Position numbers and translations under genes: made by a program. Below are positions 1,615-23,803 of a DNA stretch of 33,854 bases, one piece after another. The notes below the pieces were generated by a model. That model was not told the DNA's origin and ran no database searches. It saw nothing but the letters and a program-made list of their open reading frames with translations. The number at the start of each line of letters is the position of its first letter. Positions within the stretch are counted from its first letter, which is position 1. Origin of the DNA: Actinomycetes bacterium (GTDB lineage Bacteria; Actinomycetota; Acidimicrobiia; Acidimicrobiales; Ilumatobacteraceae); NCBI GenBank assembly GCA_014190295.1, contig BJGF01000008.1, forward strand, positions 1 to 33,854, written 5' to 3'.

Positions 1615-3894
1615 TTAACTGAAGCTAGTTGTACTGCTGGCTACGTTTGCCGCAGCCAGCGGCGCACCTTGGCTAGAGATAGAACGTTCGCCGTTTTCGA
1701 GAGCATCAAGCAAGTGAATTGCGATGTCACCAACTTTGATTTGCGATTCGTCTTTGCCGGCACCTTTGACGCCGTCGTCAAGCATGATGTAACAAAACGG
1801 GCATGCCGTAGCGATGCGAGTTGCCCCGGTGGCGATCGCTTCTCGAGCACGCTCATCGTTGACTTTGGTGCCGATATCTTCTTCCATCCACATTCTCGCG
1901 CCACCAGCACCACAACACATGCCCTTGGTGCCGTTACGTGGCATTTCGACAATTTCGATTCCTTTGATCGAGCCGACAACTTTTCGTGGGGCGATATAGA
2001 CATCATTGTGTCGACCGAGGTAACACGAATCGTGATAAGTGATGCGCTCTTCGAGTGTGGCGTTACTTACGTCAAGCCTTCCAGATTCAATTAAGTCTTC
2101 GAGCAACTGTGAGTGATGGATCACTTCGTAATTGCCACCAAGTTGCGGGTATTCGTTTTTCAGCGTGTTGAAACAGTGCGGGCATTGAGTAATAATTTTT
2201 TGCACACCCATCGTGTTGAGCATCTCGACATTTGGCATCGCCAACATTTGAAATAAGTATTCGTTGCCGCTGCGTCGCGCGCTGTCACCCGTGCACATTT
2301 CGCTTGGTCCAAGAATTGCAACATCAATACCCGCCCGCTTGAGCAACTTTGCCATCGACTGCGTTACTTTTTTATTTTTGTCGTCGAAACTTCCGGCACA
2401 GCCAACCCAGTAAAGATATTCACTTGCGAACGGTGCACCTGGGTCGAGTATTTGTACGTCTAAATCTTTGGCCCACTCACCGCGATCGGTTTGGCTCATC
2501 CCCCATGGGTTGCCTTGATTCTCCATTGCGCGGTAGGCGTTGCCCAATTGTGCCGGGAAGTTGCTCTCCATCAGCGACAAATATCTGCGCATGTCGAGAA
2601 TCTTGTCAAGAATCTCAATATTCACCGGGCAGATTTCATCGCATGCCTTGCAACTCGTGCATGACCAAATTTCTTCGGCGGTGATTCGCTCAAACAATAA
2701 GTTTGCGCCAATTTTGATTTCAGCGTCGGCACTCAGCGGTGCTGAAACTTTGCCGCCCGGAGCGTGTGCCGCAGTTGCCGCCATTACTTCGCCACTCTTG
2801 AGAATAATTTCTCGCGGATCAAGTGGCTTGCCTGTGGCATGGGCAGGGCAGACACTTGTGCAACGACCACACATTGTGCACGCGTCGAGATCAAGCAACT
2901 GCTTCCAGGTGAATTCTTCGATCACATGTACGCCAAATGATTCAAGAGAAGTTTCGGTGAGGTTTGGCATTGCCTTCATCGCGCCCTTCGGGCGTTCGCG
3001 ATCTTTGAGATACATATTTAACGGGGATGTGAACATGTGGCGCAACATAGTGATCGGCAGAATCGCCAAGAACACAATGAATGTCAAAACGTGTGCGACC
3101 CACCAACCTTGGTGCCAAGTTGTCAAAGTTGATGCGGTACTGCCGTTGACCAACTGCGCCAATCTATAACCAACAACGCTCCATTTTTCGTGGTCCAGGT
3201 TTACGCCAGCGGCTTGGCCTTGGGCGATACGAAACATCTCTGCGCCAAAACCAGTTACACCGATCGCCAACAGCACGCCAAGAATTAGCGCGTGCTCTGG
3301 TTTTGTTTTAATGCGAATGCGATACGGGCGCTGCACGTAGCGACGCAAAATCGCCCATACGACACCACCGGTGAAAACCAAACCAGCGACATCGCCGACT
3401 AATGCGTAGCCTCGATAAACGTCGCCATGAAGAAACTTAAGTTGCTCAGGCATCTGGTGATCAATTTCTAAAACTGTTGTTACGCCAAGCAGAACGAGAA
3501 AGCCGAAATAAATCATTGAATGCATTAAGCCAGCAGCGCTGTCTCGCAAGAGTGTGCGCATGTAAACACCTGAGCGATAGTCGGCCAATCGTCGCTTGAC
3601 ATTTTTTGTTGTCGTCTTGCGCTTGTCTGGTGCACCGCGCTCCCAGTTTCGAATGCGATCGGCAAACCGCAATGATCCCCAAATCAACATCACCGGAATC
3701 ACCGTGTAGAAAGCAACTCGCAATGCGGCAGGAATTCCACCAAACACTTCACGGTGGATCAGTGAAGTGTTTTCCCATCCAGTTAGTTGCGGAATGATGC
3801 CCGAGATCATCGTGAATGCACCGATGCCGACTCCGAAGGCGATTGAGAGTTGGTATGGCTTAAAGCGTTTTGTTACTGGGGCATCAGTTGACAT
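1615..3894 (-). CDS. Membrane-bound Fe-S oxidoreductase (heterodisulfide reductase HdrD-like)
   Basis: A 759-residue fusion of three parts. The N-terminal ~290 residues are a membrane domain resembling nitrate-reductase gamma/HdrE, with about five or six helices and histidines (for example H125 and H268) that could bind heme b. A bacterial two-cluster ferredoxin domain follows, with C339/C342/C345/C349 and C412/C415/C418/C422. The C-terminal half carries two cysteine-rich CCG-type domains (CPHCF, DSCYLGRH, MCCGAGGARMW, CPFCY). This is the organisation of the actinobacterial iron-sulfur-binding reductase family (compare Mycobacterium Rv0338c). Known features suggest electron transfer between membrane quinones and a cytosolic thiol or flavoprotein partner; the real substrate is unknown. 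It is the last gene of a minus-strand set with gpmA and a cyclic-nucleotide-binding protein. Start ATG 3894. Confidence 0.85.
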   Translation of the reverse strand: MSTDAPVTKRFKPYQLSIAFGVGIGAFTMISGIIPQLTGWENTSLIHREVFGGIPAALRVAFYTVIPVMLIWGSLRFADRIRNWERGAPDKRKTTTKNVKRRLADYRSGVYMRTLLRDSAAGLMHSMIYFGFLVLLGVTTVLEIDHQMPEQLKFLHGDVYRGYALVGDVAGLVFTGGVVWAILRRYVQRPYRIRIKTKPEHALILGVLLAIGVTGFGAEMFRIAQGQAAGVNLDHEKWSVVGYRLAQLVNGSTASTLTTWHQGWWVAHVLTFIVFLAILPITMLRHMFTSPLNMYLKDRERPKGAMKAMPNLTETSLESFGVHVIEEFTWKQLLDLDACTMCGRCTSVCPAHATGKPLDPREIILKSGEVMAATAAHAPGGKVSAPLSADAEIKIGANLLFERITAEEIWSCTSCKACDEICPVNIEILDKILDMRRYLSLMESNFPAQLGNAYRAMENQGNPWGMSQTDRGEWAKDLDVQILDPGAPFASEYLYWVGCAGSFDDKNKKVTQSMAKLLKRAGIDVAILGPSEMCTGDSARRSGNEYLFQMLAMPNVEMLNTMGVQKIITQCPHCFNTLKNEYPQLGGNYEVIHHSQLLEDLIESGRLDVSNATLEERITYHDSCYLGRHNDVYIAPRKVVGSIKGIEIVEMPRNGTKGMCCGAGGARMWMEEDIGTKVNDERAREAIATGATRIATACPFCYIMLDDGVKGAGKDESQIKVGDIAIHLLDALENGERSISSQGAPLAAANVASSTTSFS

Positions 3895-14530: not shown

Positions 14531-15454
14531 GTGCCACTCAACGTTCGCCCGGTTGTGCCCTCGCGGCTGTTTTCGCATGAGTCAAAGCGCTCACCGAAAA
14601 CTTTGATTGGTGGCTATATCGCATTAACCAAACCACGGATTATCGAACTTCTGCTGGTTACGACTGTCCCAACGATGGTGCTAGCAGCCGGCAAGTGGCC
14701 AGCCTGGTCACTTATCGGAGTTACTCTGCTCGGCGGCACTCTTGCGGCGGGCGGCGCAAACACAATGAATATGTATATCGATCGCGATATCGACAAACTT
14801 ATGAAGCGAACCCAACAGAGACCTCTTGTAACTGGATTGATCGCACCAAAAAATGCTCTCGTGTTTGCAGTGATTTTAGAAATTATTGCGTTCGCTATTT
14901 TGTGGGCGGGAGCAAATTTACTTTCTGCATTTCTGGCATTAAGCGCGACCGCCTTTTACGTTTTTATTTATTCACTCTGGCTGAAGCGAACAAGCAAACA
15001 AAATATTGTTATCGGTGGTGCGGCGGGGGCGGTGCCGACTCTCGTTGGTTGGGCAGCCGTAACAAATTCAGTGGGCTGGCCAGCAGTTTGGTTATTTATG
15101 ATTATATTTCTTTGGACACCGCCACATTTTTGGGCGCTGGCAATTCGTCATGCCGACGAGTATCGGGCTGCCAATGTGCCGATGTTGCCCGCCGTTGTTT
15201 CGATTGAGCGCACTGTTCGAACAATGGTCGGCTACACGATCGTGCTTGCTGGTGCCACATTCGTGTTAATGCCAGTCGCAAATCTCGGCTGGATTTACGG
15301 TTTCACCGCCATCGTTATGGGGCTTGGTTTTACGATTGGCACGGCCATGCTCGGCCGCAAACCGACTGAGGCCTGGTCGATGCGAGTATTTTCATTCTCA
15401 ATCACCTATGTGACTGTTCTGTTTGGTGCATTGATGATTGACGTGCTTATCTAG
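14531..15454 (+). CDS. ctaB: Protoheme IX farnesyltransferase (heme O synthase)
   Basis: A 307-residue UbiA-superfamily membrane prenyltransferase that adds a farnesyl group to heme b to make heme O for the aa3-type oxidase. The signature ALTKPRIIELLL precedes the first helix. The first Asp-rich motif is NMYIDRDIDKLMKRTQQRPLV (around residues 76-96; NxxxDxxxD). The second region contains WTPPHFWALAIRHADEYRAANVPMLPAV in two parts. About eight or nine helices are predicted. The GTG start at 14531 lacks a ribosome-binding site. It opens the oxidase locus, in line with its role in cofactor supply for CtaD. Confidence 0.96.
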   Translation: MPLNVRPVVPSRLFSHESKRSPKTLIGGYIALTKPRIIELLLVTTVPTMVLAAGKWPAWSLIGVTLLGGTLAAGGANTMNMYIDRDIDKLMKRTQQRPLVTGLIAPKNALVFAVILEIIAFAILWAGANLLSAFLALSATAFYVFIYSLWLKRTSKQNIVIGGAAGAVPTLVGWAAVTNSVGWPAVWLFMIIFLWTPPHFWALAIRHADEYRAANVPMLPAVVSIERTVRTMVGYTIVLAGATFVLMPVANLGWIYGFTAIVMGLGFTIGTAMLGRKPTEAWSMRVFSFSITYVTVLFGALMIDVLI

Positions 15455-15545: not shown

Positions 15546-17039
15546 ATGACGGCCGTTGACACGATTTCGCCCACTAGTTCTGGCGCAGGAATTTTCGGTC
15601 TGGTTTCTGAATGGTTGATGACCACGAGTCACCGACGCATTGGTCGATTATTGGTTGCGTCATCTGTTTTTTGGATGCTCTTAGTGGTGTTGGTCGGCAC
15701 GCTTCTTTCGGTTGAGAGAATTAGTTCGACTTCTGATCTTGTTGATCCCACAAGCACGACACAGTTGTTTTCATTTTTTCGTGTTGGTTTGATCTTTGGA
15801 GTGATGGCACCAATGACATTAGGTCTGGCTTTAGCGGTAGTACCGATGCAAATTGGCAGCCAAGTACTCGCCTTTGCTCGTGCCGCACTTTTTGGTGTCT
15901 ATCTATGGATATTTGGCATGGTTATTGTCGGCGTCGCATATATCGGCAACGGTGGTCCTGGTGGTGGTGACCCACAAATGGTTGATTTGTTTCTGGTTGG
16001 CATGGCGTTAGTAGTCGCAGGATTGATAGTTGTTAGTGCGAGCATCGCAACCACGGTTCTCACGTCTCGCCGTGCTGGGATGACGCTAATCGATGCCCCG
16101 ATTTTTGTTTGGTCGTCACTCATCACGAGTATTTCATTAATTCTCACCTTGCCCGTGATGGCTGGTGCGTTAATTTATGTTGCAGTTGATCATTCGTATG
16201 CGAGGGCAACTTTTGGTGCAACAGACGGAATCAACAGTTGGGTTGGTTGGGCACTCACATCACCGCAGATATTTTTGTTGGCGATTTCAACTCTTGGCGT
16301 ACTTGCACAAATAGTCGGCACAATGACTCGGGGCAAACAACCATTACGTGGGGGATTGTTCGTCGGTGTCGGATTGATGAGCACTGCTCTTGTTGGAACG
16401 GTGACCCAGTCTTTTTATGCGGTGCAACTAGATGGTGAACTTGCAGATATCGCAAAAAGCTTGGTGCCGTTTTTGTTGTTCAACGCACTGCCAATTCTCG
16501 GAGTTTTAATTGTGCTCGGACTTTGCTTGTTGGCGATGAAGAACGAAAAAGCAAAACCTAGCGCTGCATTTGTCCCTGCTTTTTTCGGAGTCGGAATGGT
16601 TTCAACCGGCATGCTCGGCAATGCGTTACTTCGAATCAGTAATTTGAAACTTTCAAATACGGTTTTTGAAGAAGCGGTTCTTGTTTATGTTGGGTACGGG
16701 GTGATACTTAGTTCGTTAGGTGCGATTGCGTATTTTGGCCCAAGAATTTGGGGGCGTAAAATGCCAACGATTCCGGTCATTGGTCTTGGACTACTCGGTG
16801 CTCTCGGAATCGTTTTAGCCGCACTTCCTTATTACATCGCCGGGTTTACCGATCAACCTGCTTCTCGCACAACTGGTTCGTTGGGCGACAACAGCCAAAT
16901 CTGGAACTCAGTAGCAGCGCTCGGTCAAGCAATTTTCTTGCTAGTTACGGTTGCGTTCGTTGGTCTTGTAGTTAAGTCATCGCGTGACGGCGAGATCGCT
17001 GATGATGAAATTTTCGAGACTGCTCAGGCGAACGTATGA
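15546..17039 (+). CDS. Ligand-less paralogue of cytochrome oxidase subunit I
   Basis: A 497-residue protein with about 12 helices that aligns by eye with CtaD (20041). Shared landmarks are TTSHRRIGRLL (CtaD TVDHKKLGLMY), VPMQIGSQVLAFAR at 99-112 (IPLQIGARDVAFPR), RRAGMTLIDAPIFVW at 175-189 (MRAPGMTLMKMPIFTW), TSPQIF at 238-243 (GHPEVY) and YFGPRIWGRKM at 396-406. In this alignment all six His ligands are replaced: low-spin heme H92 by F78 and H407 by L379; CuB H270 by S239 and H319/H320 by Q288/S289; high-spin heme H405 by A377. The Tyr crosslinked to CuB becomes F243. It therefore cannot hold hemes or CuB in the normal way. The frame is intact and overlaps the next gene as ATGA. Subunit or assembly roles are inference. 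Confidence 0.8.
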   Translation: MTAVDTISPTSSGAGIFGLVSEWLMTTSHRRIGRLLVASSVFWMLLVVLVGTLLSVERISSTSDLVDPTSTTQLFSFFRVGLIFGVMAPMTLGLALAVVPMQIGSQVLAFARAALFGVYLWIFGMVIVGVAYIGNGGPGGGDPQMVDLFLVGMALVVAGLIVVSASIATTVLTSRRAGMTLIDAPIFVWSSLITSISLILTLPVMAGALIYVAVDHSYARATFGATDGINSWVGWALTSPQIFLLAISTLGVLAQIVGTMTRGKQPLRGGLFVGVGLMSTALVGTVTQSFYAVQLDGELADIAKSLVPFLLFNALPILGVLIVLGLCLLAMKNEKAKPSAAFVPAFFGVGMVSTGMLGNALLRISNLKLSNTVFEEAVLVYVGYGVILSSLGAIAYFGPRIWGRKMPTIPVIGLGLLGALGIVLAALPYYIAGFTDQPASRTTGSLGDNSQIWNSVAALGQAIFLLVTVAFVGLVVKSSRDGEIADDEIFETAQANV

Positions 17040-17650
17040 GCACAACCGCGCCTGCCCTTAATTCTGGCCCGAAAATCGCGATGCGTCGTCAGGCTTTGGT
17101 TTTGACGGGTTTATTTTCTGCAGCATCTGCGATGTTGATGGGCTCAATGCTTGCTATCTGGTTGCAGTTCAGGGCGAATGCTCCACTGCGAGAATCTTCA
17201 GACGGCAGCAAGATGTTGCGCGACTGGTTGCCAGAAAATATCAAGATTCCAGAAGTAGCGACAAACACGATGATGATGACGATTGTGATCACCTGCATCA
17301 TGGCTCAATGGGCGATTTATTCTTCGCGGCGAAGCGACTCAAATCACACTTCACTCGCTCTCGGGGTTGTTCTGCTCACAGAGATCGCAATGATCAATGC
17401 GCAAATCGCCGTTTACCTACAGATGAATATTGGTGTTCGCGATAGCAGTTACACGATGATGTTTTATTCAATAACGGCGACCATGACCGCATTAATGGTT
17501 ATTGGTTTGGGTTTCACTTTGCTGGCGATGTTCAGATCGTTTGCTAGTCGTGTTAGCGATCACGATCTGATTTGTGCACACGCTGTTTATTGGTATTCGC
17601 TCACTGTGATATTTGCAGCGATGTGGTTCGTCGTGTACGTACAAAAGTAG
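17036..17650 (+). CDS. Cytochrome oxidase subunit III-like membrane protein, divergent
   Basis: A 204-residue protein with five predicted helices, as in bacterial five-helix CtaE. Its helix order matches the true CtaE at 22026: FYSITATMTALMVIGLG corresponds to FYTLTGFHGVHVTVGI, and AHAVYWYSLTVIFAAMW to IGLYWHFVDIVWIIIF. The histidines, the membrane Glu region and the YWHFVD motif conserved in subunit III are lost (YWYSLT here). The loop after helix 1 is longer and polar. The start ATG 17036 overlaps the stop of the subunit-I paralogue (ATGA), implying coupled synthesis and a probable complex of the two. It belongs to the same apparently metal-free module. Confidence 0.72.
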   Translation: MSTTAPALNSGPKIAMRRQALVLTGLFSAASAMLMGSMLAIWLQFRANAPLRESSDGSKMLRDWLPENIKIPEVATNTMMMTIVITCIMAQWAIYSSRRSDSNHTSLALGVVLLTEIAMINAQIAVYLQMNIGVRDSSYTMMFYSITATMTALMVIGLGFTLLAMFRSFASRVSDHDLICAHAVYWYSLTVIFAAMWFVVYVQK

Positions 17651-17652
17651 GG

Positions 17653-18771
17653 ATGATGTTTTCGACCGGATTTAAATATTTCATGGGTGTGACGGTGCTT
17701 TCAGTTGTGGCACTGATCATGTCGCTGTTCGTACTCGATCAAGTTGCAATCGCCGGAGTTGCACTGAGTATGTTGGTTGTTGCGGCCGCACTTCTTGGCG
17801 GCATCGCTGTTGTCACACGTGATGGCAACAGACAATCTGGTGTCAATGAACAGTCCACCGATTTGGTTAGCCAAAGCATCTGGCCACTTGTTACCAGTAT
17901 CGGCGTGGTGTTTTTGGCTCTTGGGTTGGTTATATCTTCAGCGGTATTTTTTGGCGGAATAGTAATTCTGCTTGCAGCACTCGCAGAGTGGATGGTTCAG
18001 TCATGGAGTGAACGTGCTTCAAAAGATGCAAATTACAATGCGTCGGCACGCAAGCGGTTACTCAACCCAATCGAGTTTCCAGTTCTTGCTGCGCTCGGTC
18101 TTGGCATAGTCATATTTTCGTTTTCTCGAATCATGCTGACAGTCGACAAAACAACCGGTGCGTCATTATTCATCGTTTTTGGTTCGCTGGTTTTAATCGG
18201 TGGAATCTTATTTGCAATCAAGCCAGACATGAAGCGATCTCTTGGGGCGGCAATTTGTGTACTCGGTGCGGTCGGCATTGTTGCCGGCGGAATCGTCAGC
18301 GCGACATCAGGTGTTCGTGAAGAACTTGTTGTGGCAAAAGGTGAATCGCATATGGCACCAGAGTGTGGCGAAGAACGCTCTGAGCATTTTGATAAAAATG
18401 CGACAGGTACGTTGTCTTTGCGCAGTTCAGTAAGTGCAACTATCGAATTGTTGGATGGTCAGTTAACTGCACGCCTCGTTGGTTTTCAAGATCCACAAAA
18501 GTCTTTGACAATTTCACGTTCTGCGCCAACTAATTTAATTTTTCATAATTTAGATGCAAAAGATTATCGATTAGTTGCCGAACTTGGAACGCGAGCAGCC
18601 GCTGAGCCAGAGGGTGCAACCGAAAAAAATCTCGTTTGCACTCAACTTGCGGCACAAGGTTTCGAGCAACTGTTGCTACTTAAGATAGACAAGCCAGCCC
18701 CCGAAGGCACTTCATACCGGTTGGTAGTGCCTGGAGTTGAAGGCCAGAGCATCGAGTTGGTCGTGCCGTGA
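17653..18771 (+). CDS. Seven-helix membrane protein with subunit-IV-like helices and cupredoxin-like tail
   Basis: A 372-residue protein with about seven helices (residues 8-28, 31-54, 77-94, 96-116, 142-162, 169-189, 197-217) and an exported C-terminal domain (~225-372). Helices 3-4 (SIWP at 75-78 onward) resemble the extra C-terminal helices of the true CtaD (SYWP at 595-598 onward). Helices 1-2 recall actinobacterial CtaF. The tail has beta-strand spacing like a cupredoxin: SLTISRSAPTNLIFHNLDAKD, then CTQLAAQGFE, then SYRLVVPGVEGQSIELVVP. The His and Cys-x4-His copper ligands are missing. C238 and C329 might form a disulfide. The start is ATG 17653 (or 17656), two bases after the previous stop; the frame is open further upstream, but that overlaps the preceding gene. 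Its stop overlaps the ctaC start by four bases. The homologies are my reading and need profile searches. Confidence 0.65.
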   Translation: MMFSTGFKYFMGVTVLSVVALIMSLFVLDQVAIAGVALSMLVVAAALLGGIAVVTRDGNRQSGVNEQSTDLVSQSIWPLVTSIGVVFLALGLVISSAVFFGGIVILLAALAEWMVQSWSERASKDANYNASARKRLLNPIEFPVLAALGLGIVIFSFSRIMLTVDKTTGASLFIVFGSLVLIGGILFAIKPDMKRSLGAAICVLGAVGIVAGGIVSATSGVREELVVAKGESHMAPECGEERSEHFDKNATGTLSLRSSVSATIELLDGQLTARLVGFQDPQKSLTISRSAPTNLIFHNLDAKDYRLVAELGTRAAAEPEGATEKNLVCTQLAAQGFEQLLLLKIDKPAPEGTSYRLVVPGVEGQSIELVVP

Positions 18772-20018
18772 ATCACTCAGCAAAGCACCTTTATTTGAAG
18801 CACCTTGTGACTAGCGTTTTACGCATGGTCGGCAAGAAGTCTCGAACATTATTTGGCGTCTCTTTGTTGTCGTTTATTGCGGCAAGTTGCGCCAAGAACG
18901 CTCCGCAAGATACTTGGCAGCCAAAAGGGCCAAATGCAAAAATTATCGATGATCTACAGCAACCAGTTTTCGCAGTCGCTGGAGTCATCGGTTTAATCGT
19001 CGCAGTAGCGGTCATTTATTCTGTGTTGAAATACAAAGATCGTGGTCAGCCGATCCCAGAACAAACTCACGGCAAGCCAGCACTTGAAATAACTTTGACA
19101 ATTATTCCAGCATTAATTCTTGCGGTAGTCGCAGTGTTCACATTTGGGGCAATCTTCAAACTCGCCAAAACTGATGACACTGAAATGATTATCAACGTCA
19201 CCGGTCAGCAGTGGTGGTGGGAGTACGACTACCCAGTGCAAAACGATTTTGGCATCACCCAGCCAATCATTAGTTCTGGTCAACTCGTGTTGCCGGTCGG
19301 TACAAAAGTTTTGTTGCGTGAGACAAGCCGTGATGTGATCCACTCTTATTGGATTCCAGCACTGAACGGCAAACGCGATGCAGTGCCTGGGCGAATACAA
19401 ACACTTCGACTCGAGGCCGATGAACCAGGAATCTTTACTGGTCAATGCACCGAGTTTTGTGGTTTGTCACATGCCAACATGCGAATGGAAGCAGTTGCAT
19501 TGAGCAAAGCAGATTTTGCGAAGTGGGTCGCCAACCAACAAGCGGCATATGTTGCGCCCGCAAAAGACTCTCTTGCCCAACAGGGTGAAGCAGTATTTCT
19601 AAACCAATGCGTGCGTTGTCACCAAGTAAACGGTCTGATGCGTGCCGACGGCACCCCAGCAATCGCTGCGCCAGATGAAAATGTTTGGTCTGGTTCTGCA
19701 CCAAACTTGACGCATCTAATGTCTCGCAATACTTTTGCAGGCGCGAGTTTCGATTTACTTTCTAAGCAATGTCGGGACGAAGTATGGAACGCCCCGAGTG
19801 ACGTGATCGGCACCAAATATCTTGCTGGTGTTTCACAAGATTGTTTGAATCAGAAAGATTTGCGATCGTGGTTGCGAAATGCCCCGGAGATGTTGCCGAT
19901 GTACGCAAATCCAACTCAACTAGCAGCTACTGGTGGCAAGTATCGCGGCATGCCATATCTTGCTCTAAGCGAAGATGACATCAGCAAACTTGTTGCATAC
20001 CTTTTAACCTTGAAGTAA
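18768..20018 (+). CDS. ctaC: Cytochrome c oxidase subunit II fused to cytochrome c (caa3 type)
   Basis: A 416-residue lipoprotein-like subunit. The N-terminus has a lipobox (IAASC, lipidated Cys41), then two membrane helices (about 67-87 and 107-130) and the CuA cupredoxin domain with H192, C227, E229, C231, H235 and M238 (motif CTEFCGLSHANM). A C-terminal cytochrome c domain follows with CVRCH at 281-285, making this a caa3-type oxidase that takes electrons through its own c heme. The c domain has an insert containing two extra cysteines (C335 and C359). The axial Met is probably in GMPYL (M395). GTG 18768 overlaps the preceding stop, coupling it to the ligand-less module upstream. Confidence 0.95.
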   Translation: MNHSAKHLYLKHLVTSVLRMVGKKSRTLFGVSLLSFIAASCAKNAPQDTWQPKGPNAKIIDDLQQPVFAVAGVIGLIVAVAVIYSVLKYKDRGQPIPEQTHGKPALEITLTIIPALILAVVAVFTFGAIFKLAKTDDTEMIINVTGQQWWWEYDYPVQNDFGITQPIISSGQLVLPVGTKVLLRETSRDVIHSYWIPALNGKRDAVPGRIQTLRLEADEPGIFTGQCTEFCGLSHANMRMEAVALSKADFAKWVANQQAAYVAPAKDSLAQQGEAVFLNQCVRCHQVNGLMRADGTPAIAAPDENVWSGSAPNLTHLMSRNTFAGASFDLLSKQCRDEVWNAPSDVIGTKYLAGVSQDCLNQKDLRSWLRNAPEMLPMYANPTQLAATGGKYRGMPYLALSEDDISKLVAYLLTLK

Positions 20019-20040: not shown

Positions 20041-22029
20041 ATGGCAATTATGGAACGCGAAATAGAAGTGATCACTCCGATTACTGCTACACCAAGTTCA
20101 ACGTACGGCGTCCTCAAGCGTCCAGTTGCAGCCACAGGTTGGCGTGCGTGGGTGTTCACGGTTGACCACAAAAAACTCGGGTTGATGTACGGCGTTACAG
20201 CGATGTTCTTTTTTATCGTTGGCGGAGTTGAAGCTTTATTGATTCGACTTCAACTTGCAGCACCAAATGGCAAAGTTTTAAACGCAGATCTTTACAACCA
20301 AATGTTCACGATGCATGCGACAACAATGGTGTTCTTGTTTGTCATGCCGATGGCGGCCGGATTCGCGAACTATTTTATTCCGTTACAAATTGGTGCCCGT
20401 GACGTTGCGTTTCCGCGGATGAACGCACTTGGTTTTTGGTTGCTATTGTTCGGCGGAATCTTCATCAACTTGTCGTGGTTCCTTGGCGGGGCAGCAGATG
20501 GCGGTTGGTTTATGTACGCGCCAAACTCTGGGCCAGTATTCTCACCAACTCATGGAATCGACTTCTGGGCATTTGGTCTGCAGATTGCGGGCATTGCTTC
20601 ACTGACTGGTGCGATCAACTTAATTGTCACTGTTCTTAATATGCGAGCACCTGGCATGACTTTAATGAAGATGCCGATTTTCACTTGGATGATGACAGTT
20701 GTGCAGTTCTTATTGTTGTTCGCAGTGCCCGTAATCACCGTCGCTCTGTTCTTGCTTTCTTTTCAACGCAACTTTGGTGCGCGTTTCTTTGACGTCGCGG
20801 CCGGCGCAGACCCGTTGCTGTGGCAGCACTTATTTTGGATCTTCGGTCACCCAGAGGTTTACATTCTTGTGCTTCCGTCTTTTGGAATCGTCTCAGAGGT
20901 TCTGCCAGTGTTTTCTCGCAAACCGTTATTTGGTTATCCGTTCGTTGTTTTCTCCGGCGCAGCGATTGGTTTTGTCGGTTGGGGAGTTTGGGCTCACCAC
21001 ATGTTCGCCTCTGGTCTAGGACCAGTATCAGTAGCCGTGTTTTCGCTAACAACCATGGCTATTGCGGTGCCGACTGGTGTCAAGATCATCAACTGGACGC
21101 TGACCATGTGGGGAGGAAAATTAGTTTTCTCGACCGCGATGAAGTTTTCAATTGGGTTGATCGTGTTATTTACAGTTGGTGGTCTTTCTGGTGTAACTCA
21201 CTCAGTTGCTCCATCAGACACGCAACAAACTGACACTTATTACATTGTCGCCCACTTTCATTACGTGTTGTTCGGCGGTGGCGTACTCGGAATCTTCTCT
21301 GGTCTTTATTACTGGTGGCCAAAAATGTTCGGCAAGATGCTCAATGAGCGCCTTGGCAACTGGAACTTCTGGTTAATGGTGATCGGCATGAATTTAACTT
21401 TCGGTCCGATGCATATTTTGGGTCTACAAGGACAGCCTCGCCGGATGTACCAGTTCACAAATGCTCGATCCGGTGAAGGTCTGTTTAATTTTGCATTTTG
21501 GAACCTCGTGGCATCCATTGGCTCGTTCGTACTCGCCGTTGGTATCTTGCTGTTTTTGATCAACGTGGTTATCACCGCACGAAATCCGACTAAGTCTCCG
21601 CTTGATCCGTGGAACGCGCGAAGTCTTGAATGGATGACGAGCAACCCACCCAAAGAACATAATTTTGATGTAATCCCAACCGTGCATCACCTTGATGAGT
21701 TTTTCCATCGTAAATACGAAGAAGATTCAGCAACGCACACGATGCGACAGATTGCAACAGCCGAAGAAATTATGGCCGAACAAGAACGTAACGCAGATGC
21801 GCATATTCATATGCCGTCACCTTCTTACTGGCCAGTAGTTTTGGCATTTGGTTTGCCGGTAATCACATTCGGGATGATTTTCTCGCATCTAATCGCCGTA
21901 TTTGGTGCGATCATCGTGTTCTTTGCTGCATTTGGATGGGCGCTTGAACCGAGTACGGCCCCAGCATCTGATTTCGAAACAAACAATTCGGCACCCGGAA
22001 AAGCGTTGGAGAGTGTAGGTAAATCATGA
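20041..22029 (+). CDS. ctaD: Cytochrome c oxidase subunit I with C-terminal extension
   Basis: A 662-residue A-type heme-copper oxidase core. All ligands are present: heme a H92 and H407, heme a3 H405, CuB H270, H319 and H320, with Y274 in GHPEVY. Glu272 is in the place of the proton-channel glutamate, and GQPRRMY carries the propionate arginines. Beyond the standard 12 helices there is a ~110-residue tail: a His/Asp-rich cytoplasmic stretch (HHLDEFFHRK) followed by two more helices (about 596-635), giving a fused subunit-IV-like end. It reduces O2 to water and pumps protons. ATG 20041 has only a weak GAGAA upstream. The stop overlaps ctaE as ATGA. Confidence 0.98.
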   Translation: MAIMEREIEVITPITATPSSTYGVLKRPVAATGWRAWVFTVDHKKLGLMYGVTAMFFFIVGGVEALLIRLQLAAPNGKVLNADLYNQMFTMHATTMVFLFVMPMAAGFANYFIPLQIGARDVAFPRMNALGFWLLLFGGIFINLSWFLGGAADGGWFMYAPNSGPVFSPTHGIDFWAFGLQIAGIASLTGAINLIVTVLNMRAPGMTLMKMPIFTWMMTVVQFLLLFAVPVITVALFLLSFQRNFGARFFDVAAGADPLLWQHLFWIFGHPEVYILVLPSFGIVSEVLPVFSRKPLFGYPFVVFSGAAIGFVGWGVWAHHMFASGLGPVSVAVFSLTTMAIAVPTGVKIINWTLTMWGGKLVFSTAMKFSIGLIVLFTVGGLSGVTHSVAPSDTQQTDTYYIVAHFHYVLFGGGVLGIFSGLYYWWPKMFGKMLNERLGNWNFWLMVIGMNLTFGPMHILGLQGQPRRMYQFTNARSGEGLFNFAFWNLVASIGSFVLAVGILLFLINVVITARNPTKSPLDPWNARSLEWMTSNPPKEHNFDVIPTVHHLDEFFHRKYEEDSATHTMRQIATAEEIMAEQERNADAHIHMPSPSYWPVVLAFGLPVITFGMIFSHLIAVFGAIIVFFAAFGWALEPSTAPASDFETNNSAPGKALESVGKS

Positions 22030-22616
22030 CCGACATAACCGCACACGGTCACGCTTCAAGTACTGGCATCTCAAATGTCAAGTTAGGAATGTGGACATTT
22101 TTGGGGTCAGAGTGTTTATTGTTCGGTGGCTTGATCTCGACGTACATGCTTTATCGCGGTCGAGTTACTGGTGGTCCGCGACCATCACAGATTTTTGATA
22201 TTCCGTTTACGTCTGTCAGCAGTTTTGTGTTGTTGATGTCTTCGTTGACGATGGTTTTGGCAGTAAGCGCAGCACACAAAAGTGAAGATCGCAAAACTAA
22301 TCTCTGGCTTACGGTTACTGCACTTTTAGGTGCAACATTCGTGGGTGGCCAGGTGTATGAGTTCACCGCGTTTTACAACGAAGGTCTCGGCTTTTCGACA
22401 AGTTTGTTTGGTTCAAGTTTCTACACCCTGACCGGGTTTCACGGTGTGCACGTCACAGTCGGAATCATCATGTTGATGTCACTTGTTGGCATCTTTAAGC
22501 GCAGCAAAGTATCGGGCAATAAAGCCGAAGTTGTAGAGATGATCGGTCTTTATTGGCACTTCGTTGACATCGTTTGGATCATCATCTTTACGCTCGTCTA
22601 TCTGATTCCAGTCTGA
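22026..22616 (+). CDS. ctaE: Cytochrome c oxidase subunit III
   Basis: A 196-residue five-helix subunit III. Conserved features are LGMWTFLGSECLLFGGL in helix 1, GQVYEF with the membrane Glu, FYTLTGFHGVHVTVGI, and the terminal YWHFVDIVWIIIF. It stabilises the CtaD core and proton uptake. Its start overlaps the ctaD stop by four bases, and the subunit IV gene begins two bases after its stop. Comparison with the protein at 17036 shows which conserved residues that paralogue has lost. Confidence 0.97.
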   Translation: MTDITAHGHASSTGISNVKLGMWTFLGSECLLFGGLISTYMLYRGRVTGGPRPSQIFDIPFTSVSSFVLLMSSLTMVLAVSAAHKSEDRKTNLWLTVTALLGATFVGGQVYEFTAFYNEGLGFSTSLFGSSFYTLTGFHGVHVTVGIIMLMSLVGIFKRSKVSGNKAEVVEMIGLYWHFVDIVWIIIFTLVYLIPV

Positions 22617-22618
22617 TC

Positions 22619-22942
22619 ATGACTACAGAAACAACACACACTTCACCGAGCGTTGAGCATGTTGAGAATCACGGCATGAGCAACGCTGGCTATATTCGAA
22701 TTGCCGCGATCCTGGCAGCGATTACCGCTCTCGAAGTTTCGACCGTCTACGTTGATTTTGGTCCACTATTTTTGCCAGCACTTTTGATCATGATGGTCGT
22801 CAAATTTATTATGGTTGTCAGTTACTTCATGCATTTGAAATTTGACAATAAATTATTCAGTTTTATGTTTTATGCGGGGCTTGTTTTGGCAGTTGGTGTT
22901 TATGCTGCATTTCTCGCAACATTCAAATTTTTTATTCAATAA
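22619..22942 (+). CDS. Prokaryotic cytochrome c oxidase subunit IV (COX4_pro type)
   Basis: A 107-residue protein with three helices and the family motif VVKFIMVVSYFMHLKFD (about residues 59-75), characteristic of the caa3/bo3 subunit IV. The short soluble N-terminus is rich in Thr, Glu and His. ATG 22619 follows the ctaE stop directly. It is a small structural subunit of the oxidase and is distinct from the actinobacterial CtaF-like helices in the protein at 17653. Confidence 0.9.
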   Translation: MTTETTHTSPSVEHVENHGMSNAGYIRIAAILAAITALEVSTVYVDFGPLFLPALLIMMVVKFIMVVSYFMHLKFDNKLFSFMFYAGLVLAVGVYAAFLATFKFFIQ

Positions 22943-22960: not shown

Positions 22961-23803
22961 GTGATCGCTGATTCAGTGGATCTGGTCGCGAACCCGTGGA
23001 GGTTTCAGACACACCTCGAAGTATGGCTATTGGTGGGTGCTGTGTTAGCCGCCTATATCTATGCCGTTCGCGTAATCGGACCAGTTGTGGTTAAATCTGG
23101 GCCCATAACAACCCGCAAGCAAAGGATCGCGTTTGTTGTTGCAATTTTGATGCTGTGGCTTGCTTCAGATTGGCCGGTACACGATATTGCCGAAGAATAT
23201 TTATATTCGATGCACATGTTTCAACATATGGTGCTGTCGTATTTAATGCCCCCATTGGCTTTGATTGCAATACCGAAGTGGCTTTTTGACTCGATATTTG
23301 GATACGGGCGGGCTCGAAAGATTGTTTCGTTCTTATCAAAACCTGTGATTGCTGGTGTCGCATTTAATTTGATCGTGATGGTCACGCATATTCCTGATGT
23401 CGTAAATCGCAGTGTCTCGAATGGCCCGATGCATTACGGCTTGCATATTGCACTGGTATCAACGGCGCTACTTGTTTGGATGCCGATCTGTGGCCCTGAA
23501 CGCCGAATGCATTTGCAATCAGGCGGAAAAATGATCTACTTATTTTTGTTGTCGGTGGTGCCAACAGTGCCTGCAGCATGGTTGACATTTGCTGAAGGGT
23601 CGGTTTATAAGCACTACGACATCGCAGTTCGTGTTTGGGGGATGTCGGTGACTACTGATCAACAAGTAGCCGGGGCAATCATGAAAACTGGTGGCTCGGT
23701 TTTTCTGTGGTCGATAATTATCTACATCTTTTTCAAACGTTTTACGCCGGCGTTTTCTGGTGATCGTTCGTATCTGCGTCGCAAAACTAGTCAGACCACC
23801 TGA
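22961..23803 (+). CDS. ctaG: CtaG-type cytochrome c oxidase assembly factor
   Basis: A 280-residue membrane protein with about seven helices of the Caa3_CtaG family. Recognisable parts are SDWPVHDIAEEYLYSMHMFQHMVLSYLMPPL (about residues 67-98, in two pieces here), with conserved histidines, and later VVNRSVSNGPMHYGLH and MPICGP. The Bacillus CtaG is needed for active caa3 oxidase, probably by delivering copper to CuB; the membrane His/Met cluster fits that. The GTG start at 22961 follows AAGAAA. Its 3' end overlaps the convergent ABC permease by 17 nt. Confidence 0.9.
   Translation: MIADSVDLVANPWRFQTHLEVWLLVGAVLAAYIYAVRVIGPVVVKSGPITTRKQRIAFVVAILMLWLASDWPVHDIAEEYLYSMHMFQHMVLSYLMPPLALIAIPKWLFDSIFGYGRARKIVSFLSKPVIAGVAFNLIVMVTHIPDVVNRSVSNGPMHYGLHIALVSTALLVWMPICGPERRMHLQSGGKMIYLFLLSVVPTVPAAWLTFAEGSVYKHYDIAVRVWGMSVTTDQQVAGAIMKTGGSVFLWSIIIYIFFKRFTPAFSGDRSYLRRKTSQTT

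Follow-up and report, generated by a model that had tools for sequence, protein, structure and literature searches.

The closest described relatives of the genes reported here encode the A-type oxygen reductases (aa3 and caa3). Cofactor-less paralogues in respiratory enzymes are already known from cytochrome bd, where the paralogous subunit CydB/CydA' lacks cofactors and has been retained for structure. That case is a single pseudo-subunit within one enzyme, whereas the locus described below carries a whole three-gene heme-copper set. Blue copper proteins tied to oxidase operons have also been described, in the form of the membrane-anchored cupredoxins 'Cup' of COX gene clusters (PMC8239418), which in these respects resemble the relatives of one of our genes, shX. 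Both 'Cup' and the three-segment (3TM) membrane cupredoxin encoded after ctaG in other orders of Acidimicrobiia are, unlike shX, stand-alone proteins with an intact copper motif and without oxidase-like partner subunits. A literature search on cofactor-less subunit I, on oxidases of Ilumatobacter and Acidimicrobiia and on heme-copper pseudoenzymes found no description of such a set, with most subscription papers lying outside its coverage. As far as can be told, a whole cofactor-less heme-copper set with intermediates is new.

Gene order at the caa3 locus

The window, by which we mean the whole stretch of DNA analysed (33,854 nucleotides), is part of a 1.77-Mb draft genome. Three genes at 15546-18771, between ctaB and ctaC, are named here shI, shIII and shX and are referred to together as the shadow module (Table 1). 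The junctions reported in an initial annotation of the locus were borne out, with an ATGA overlap between shI and shIII, a 2-nt gap between shIII and shX, and a GTGA overlap between shX and ctaC. Across the genomes of the order the arrangement ctaB-shI-shIII-shX-ctaC-D-E-F-G was fixed wherever contigs were complete enough to allow its survey, and both the frames and their order were found again in dozens of genomes. In public records the relatives are mainly MAGs of Ilumatobacteraceae and Acidimicrobiaceae, some of them labelled Ferrithrix; the window is inferred from them to come from a freshwater member of the Acidimicrobiales, the order across which the set is conserved. Such wide recurrence under purifying selection (see below) makes the shadow module more than a product of chance. 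The window also encodes, on the opposite strand, a large membrane FeS protein (Table 1).

Table 1. Coordinates of the genes and residues discussed in the text; positions are those of the window unless preceded by the handle of another locus
Feature	Coordinates	Strand	Description	Basis
Membrane FeS protein	1618-3894	-	two CCG stretches, 4Fe-4S motifs, nitrate-reductase-gamma-like part	
ctaB	14531..15454	+	heme O synthase (UbiA family); opens the conserved gene order, position constant in all complete loci	Pfam UbiA 8e-62
shI	15546..17039	+	COX1 (subunit-I) paralogue, 497 aa, 0/6 ligand His	Pfam COX1 99.4 bits
shIII	17036..17650	+	COX3 (subunit-III) paralogue, 204 aa	family-profile match to CtaE and PDB COX3 chains
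shX	17653..18771	+	subunit-IV-like hairpin, three more membrane segments and C-terminal domain, 372 aa	family-profile match to PDB
shX Cys238 codon	18364-18366	+		
shX Cys329 codon	18637-18639	+		
ctaC	18768..20018	+	true subunit II, CuA motif (CTEFCGLSHANM), fused cytochrome c (CVRCH)	Pfam COX2 4e-23, Cytochrom_C 6e-9; motifs read directly
ctaD	20041..22029	+	true caa3 subunit I, 6/6 His present	Pfam COX1 520 bits; ligand table
ctaE	22026..22616	+	true subunit III	Pfam COX3 6e-20
ctaF	22619..22942	+	subunit IV	Pfam COX4_pro 1.6e-11
ctaG	22961..23803	+	caa3 assembly factor	Pfam Caa3_CtaG 3e-38
Membrane cupredoxin	L114:5911-6684	+	three membrane segments; ends caa3 operon	
CcoN-like protein with cupredoxin	L113:6093-8237	-	715 aa, directly upstream of ctaC	
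CcoN-like protein with cytochrome c domain	L198:988-3066	-	ligand-less; cytochrome c domain FixO-like	
CcoN-like protein with cytochrome c domain	L200:1150-3399	+	ligand-less	
A-type subunit II with cupredoxin	L180:2813-4129	+	COX2 domain followed by an additional type-1 copper cupredoxin at the C-terminus, in place of cytochrome c	

Subunit I without its ligands

The three genes had been annotated as counterparts of oxidase subunits devoid of redox ligands, and profile matches together with a table of ligand positions support that description, placing the shadow proteins inside and not outside the heme-copper oxidase families. The match of shI to Pfam COX1 spans profile positions 1-435 of 436, i.e. 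the whole length, and matches to actinobacterial COX1 structures reach E values down to 2e-20. By homology, therefore, shI is a member of the heme-copper oxidase superfamily (subunit I family, PF00115). The CuB ligand positions are occupied by S239, Q288 and S289, and those of the heme ligands by F78, V378 and V380, leaving no histidine for CuB, for the low-spin pair or for heme a3. The initial annotation had likewise found all six histidines changed and had listed the first four of these replacements (F78, S239, Q288 and S289) correctly; its last two, A377 and L379, differ from our V378 and V380 by a one-residue shift of the alignment, and no histidine stands in either register. Nor have the ligands moved elsewhere, as the only histidines of shI, H29 and H216, are both off the ligand positions. 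The CuB-linked tyrosine is F243, as annotated, and the D, N, K and E (E242-type) positions are replaced by V107, L96, V323 and Q241, respectively.

No CuA-bearing subunit II was found inside the module, the sole COX2 being that of ctaC, with ctaD directly after it. Judged against what a functional A-type heme-copper oxygen reductase must have (CuB histidines, heme histidines, the tyrosine, D and K channels, and a CuA subunit of its own), the module of the window fails. AlphaFold models of shI and shX, for which the input was the window and a few close loci only, were of too low confidence to be used (mean pLDDT 40 and 36, the higher value being that of shX).

shIII and the composite protein shX

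As a single sequence shIII scored 21.5 bits against Pfam COX3, which is under the Pfam cut-off. It aligned to the CtaE family by hhalign at 99.0% (E 2.9e-18), and the shIII family profile matched PDB COX3 chains at 3.7e-24; on profile evidence shIII is a subunit III (COX3).

The shX protein of the window, taken alone, was assigned to no Pfam family. When its family profile was compared with PDB, an actinobacterial oxidase subunit 4 was matched at the N-terminus (first third; 5.6e-6) and auracyanin, a blue copper protein, at the C-terminus (5.8e-5). Cupredoxin_1 of Pfam was matched on the end of shX in the five heme-bearing relatives scanned, one of them under the curated cut-off, and the copper motif Cys-x2-His-x2-4-Met is present in 14 relatives. 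That motif is absent from the shX of the window, whose end reads YRLVVPGVEGQSIELVVP, and the strands modelled in this region (pLDDT 40) are of low confidence only. Assignment of the window's C-terminal domain as a cupredoxin is thus weak, resting on position and slight sequence similarity. For the module as a whole, the profiles describe an oxidase-like set of subunits I, III and IV in which a cupredoxin-like domain replaces subunit II. Common ancestry with the A-type oxygen reductases is accordingly seen in I, III and IV alike, from profile and PDB sequence matches, and the same set of subunits is represented.

In other orders of the class ctaG is often followed by a three-segment membrane cupredoxin gene. 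The three segments and cupredoxin region that make up the second part of shX match this gene, suggesting that a subunit IV and a cupredoxin of this type may have been fused to give shX. Genes of this kind end the caa3 operon in many Acidimicrobiia (that of L114 is given in Table 1).

In the family of the window, shX retains a ligand-less C-terminal domain with two conserved cysteines. These residues, Cys238 and Cys329, show no variation among close relatives and reappear in the wider family, and it could be argued from them that the window lineage is still redox-active or ligand-sensing through unconventional ligands, such as conserved Cys or His of shX. Against this, shI of the window has no histidine at a ligand position and only two histidines and one cysteine in total, and two extracytoplasmic cysteines would equally suit a disulfide, which Cys238 and Cys329 possibly form. 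We consider a surviving redox or sensing function to have only a slim chance of being correct.

Relatives and the order of cofactor loss

We compared 157 subunit-I sequences from the order, the class and the phylum, comprising 66 shadow proteins and 91 oxidases. All of the oxidases (91/91) keep the six histidines, apart from positions cut by contig ends, whereas the CuB set was kept in none of the 66 shadow proteins, which form one clade with full support (FastTree, and also under a site-mixture model). The low-spin heme pair was retained in 16 of the 66 and absent from the other 50. Ten of the 16 have all three heme histidines, usually with Arg-Ala-Gly at the CuB ligand positions, and six have the low-spin pair only. 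Absence of CuB ligands from every member and of a CuA subunit II from the module sets the shadow clade apart from the A-type oxygen reductases, and the window lineage differs from them further in lacking heme ligands, D/K channel residues and the CuB-linked tyrosine.

On a 56-row tree the minimum number of changes was one for the CuB set, one for the low-spin pair and six for the a3 histidine. Of the 16 operons that keep the heme pair, 14 have the type-1 copper motif C-x2-H-x2-4-M on shX, as against 0 of the 40 complete operons that lack the pair. In many middle-clade genomes shX has no Cupredoxin_1-type domain. These copper and heme-pair counts come from related sequences and hence represent few independent events. 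As read from ligand positions, which are also our only guide to ancestral heme content, the order of loss was CuB first, then heme a3 repeatedly, then copper and low-spin heme, and in the window lineage every cofactor ligand is gone. The term 'metal-free', applied to the module in the initial annotation, accordingly holds for the window and not for the family as a whole, since distant relatives hold heme and blue-copper ligands.

Origin of the clade

A duplication of the adjacent ctaD was tried as the source of shI and rejected, since the shadow sequences do not fall within the caa3 clade, which is itself fully supported in the tree. Constraining shadow and caa3 sequences to group together was 27 log-likelihood units worse (AU p 0.047), and a sister relationship to caa3 is therefore rejected only marginally. 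The module appears to belong to a separate A-type lineage rather than to be a decayed copy of ctaD. Its nearest neighbours in the tree are oxidases from elsewhere in the phylum, a weak placement (support 57). Two of these (L180 and L181) have a cupredoxin-like end on the gene preceding subunit I, confirmed by Pfam for L180 (Table 1). They resemble the shadow sets in combining a blue-copper domain with a subunit I of the A type, and share the C-terminal tail LEW...SPPP..NFD with heme-bearing shadows; unlike the shadows, they have all six histidines, and a CuA-type COX2 domain is present in subunit II of L180.

Linkage to caa3 and selection on the module

Coupling of the module to the caa3 genes, as first proposed, is upheld by the conserved gene order and by co-occurrence. 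The shadow set was found only with a caa3-type ctaD, and caa3 was missing from every order genome checked in which the set was missing. Those without shX have only other A-type oxidases, which score 470-520 bits against the window's CtaD as compared with more than 910 for caa3; one of them gave no match at all. Two apparent exceptions, G017 and G060, carry the shadow module at contig ends. In other orders of the class caa3 is present without the module.

An independent non-redox membrane complex, e.g. a transporter or channel that uses the oxidase fold and is unrelated to caa3 function, might be supposed from the strong divergence of the proteins and from the swapping of proton-channel and ligand residues for recurring others, such as Gln at former metal positions. 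However, none of the order genomes checked has the module without caa3, and its position in the operon is constant, making such a complex rather improbable. A role as stand-in for the bc complex was rejected, a bc/b6-type cytochrome b gene being present in the window's genome and in all shadow-bearing genomes checked. NrfD-type genes were not common to the shadow-bearing genomes checked.

The same linkage could be read as that of an assembly factor, a template or holding site aiding insertion of heme A or copper into CtaD or CtaC and then leaving the mature enzyme. The module lies between ctaB and ctaC with ctaG downstream, it is strictly linked to caa3, and in many copper-type operons a TlpA/redoxin-like gene adjoins it (next to shX in 8 of 14, as against 1 of 37 other operons). 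Retention of counterparts of subunits I, III and IV would nevertheless be less expected of a chaperone than of a stoichiometric complex; CtaB and CtaG, the usual factors, are both encoded at the locus, and caa3 is built without the module in other orders. We regard the assembly role as unlikely, without dismissing it.

In comparisons of the window with species whose shI is 77-95% identical, dN/dS was 0.07-0.11 for shI, 0.07-0.12 for shIII and mostly 0.08-0.10 for shX, with one close pair at 0.25, as against 0.03-0.06 for ctaC, ctaD and ctaE. The shadow module is under purifying selection and is constrained less than the enzyme. The initial annotation had held that selection keeps the frames and that decay is unlikely, and values mostly near 0.1 and the open frames of the homologues are in keeping with this. 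Decaying pseudogenes whose loss is pending would account for the long branches, the loss of all ligands and a stop in shI of one genome (G001). With dN/dS mostly about 0.1 across three adjacent genes, frames open in dozens of genomes and translational coupling retained, such decay is very unlikely and hardly tenable.

A proposed role beside caa3

The reading that we prefer, at a probability of roughly 0.55, is that the module derives from a copper-to-heme electron-entry complex docked to caa3 and is now a redox-dead accessory or scaffold complex. The ancestor would have been an electron-carrying complex with a surface type-1 copper, a low-spin heme held by two histidines and another heme with a proximal histidine. 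Already without CuB, it would not have reduced O2 by the usual heme-copper chemistry. Most likely it docked to the caa3 of the same operon and passed electrons towards it, giving an extra route of entry in addition to that through the cytochrome c domain of CtaC. Type-1 copper and bis-His heme, combined in one complex that always stands beside caa3, are best read as such an entry path, one not itself reducing oxygen. In the family of the window this donor route would have become unnecessary, with loss of the copper and both hemes, and the protein shell may have been kept since assembly, stability or supercomplex geometry of caa3 came to depend on it. What would remain today is a redox-dead, oxidase-shaped membrane complex of subunits I and III with a subunit IV fused to a former cupredoxin.

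As the set is still kept after cofactor loss, its remaining role is probably structural, and we infer that it lies in the stability, assembly or placement of caa3. Ancestral electron transfer and contact with caa3 are likewise inferred, whereas homology, the missing ligands, a single origin, the sequence of losses, the operon linkage, the co-occurrence and the purifying selection are established by the analyses above. Operon linkage and co-occurrence are no proof of physical contact, and there are no expression, protein or interaction data. Against an accessory role stands the caa3 of other orders of the class, which works with no such module.

In another order, a 715-aa protein encoded at L113 joins a ligand-less cbb3-type (CcoN-like) subunit I to a membrane part of three segments and a cupredoxin with a type-1 copper motif (CDVHPTM). 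The shadow module seems to have in it a counterpart of independent origin, and this cbb3-type parallel makes docking to caa3 more likely. Ligand-less CcoN-like proteins were also seen fused to a cytochrome c domain (L198 and L200), and as separate proteins in several further genomes of the class, none of them beside caa3.

Implications

We put forward more tentatively, at slightly less than even odds, that the clade is a new heme-copper branch that never reduces oxygen, that its heme-bearing members serve for electron entry (from blue copper through heme to caa3) and those of the window's family as a purely structural partner, and that it offers living intermediates between an enzyme complex and a scaffold. 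A comparable complex may have emerged on two occasions, from an A-type subunit I and from one of the cbb3 type. Metal ligands are what defines the members of the heme-copper superfamily, and a conserved clade without CuB represents the oxidase fold used without its chemistry. With living intermediates ranging from two-heme to cofactor-free forms, the order of cofactor loss is open to direct study, and the series predicts heme spectra in the basal forms and none in Ilumatobacteraceae. Matches to PF00115 in Acidimicrobiia are not all oxidases, and counts of terminal oxidases based on annotation may be too high there. The carriers are a group of soil and water bacteria, in which the shadow set suggests that an enzyme-shaped part has been kept for a non-chemical use.
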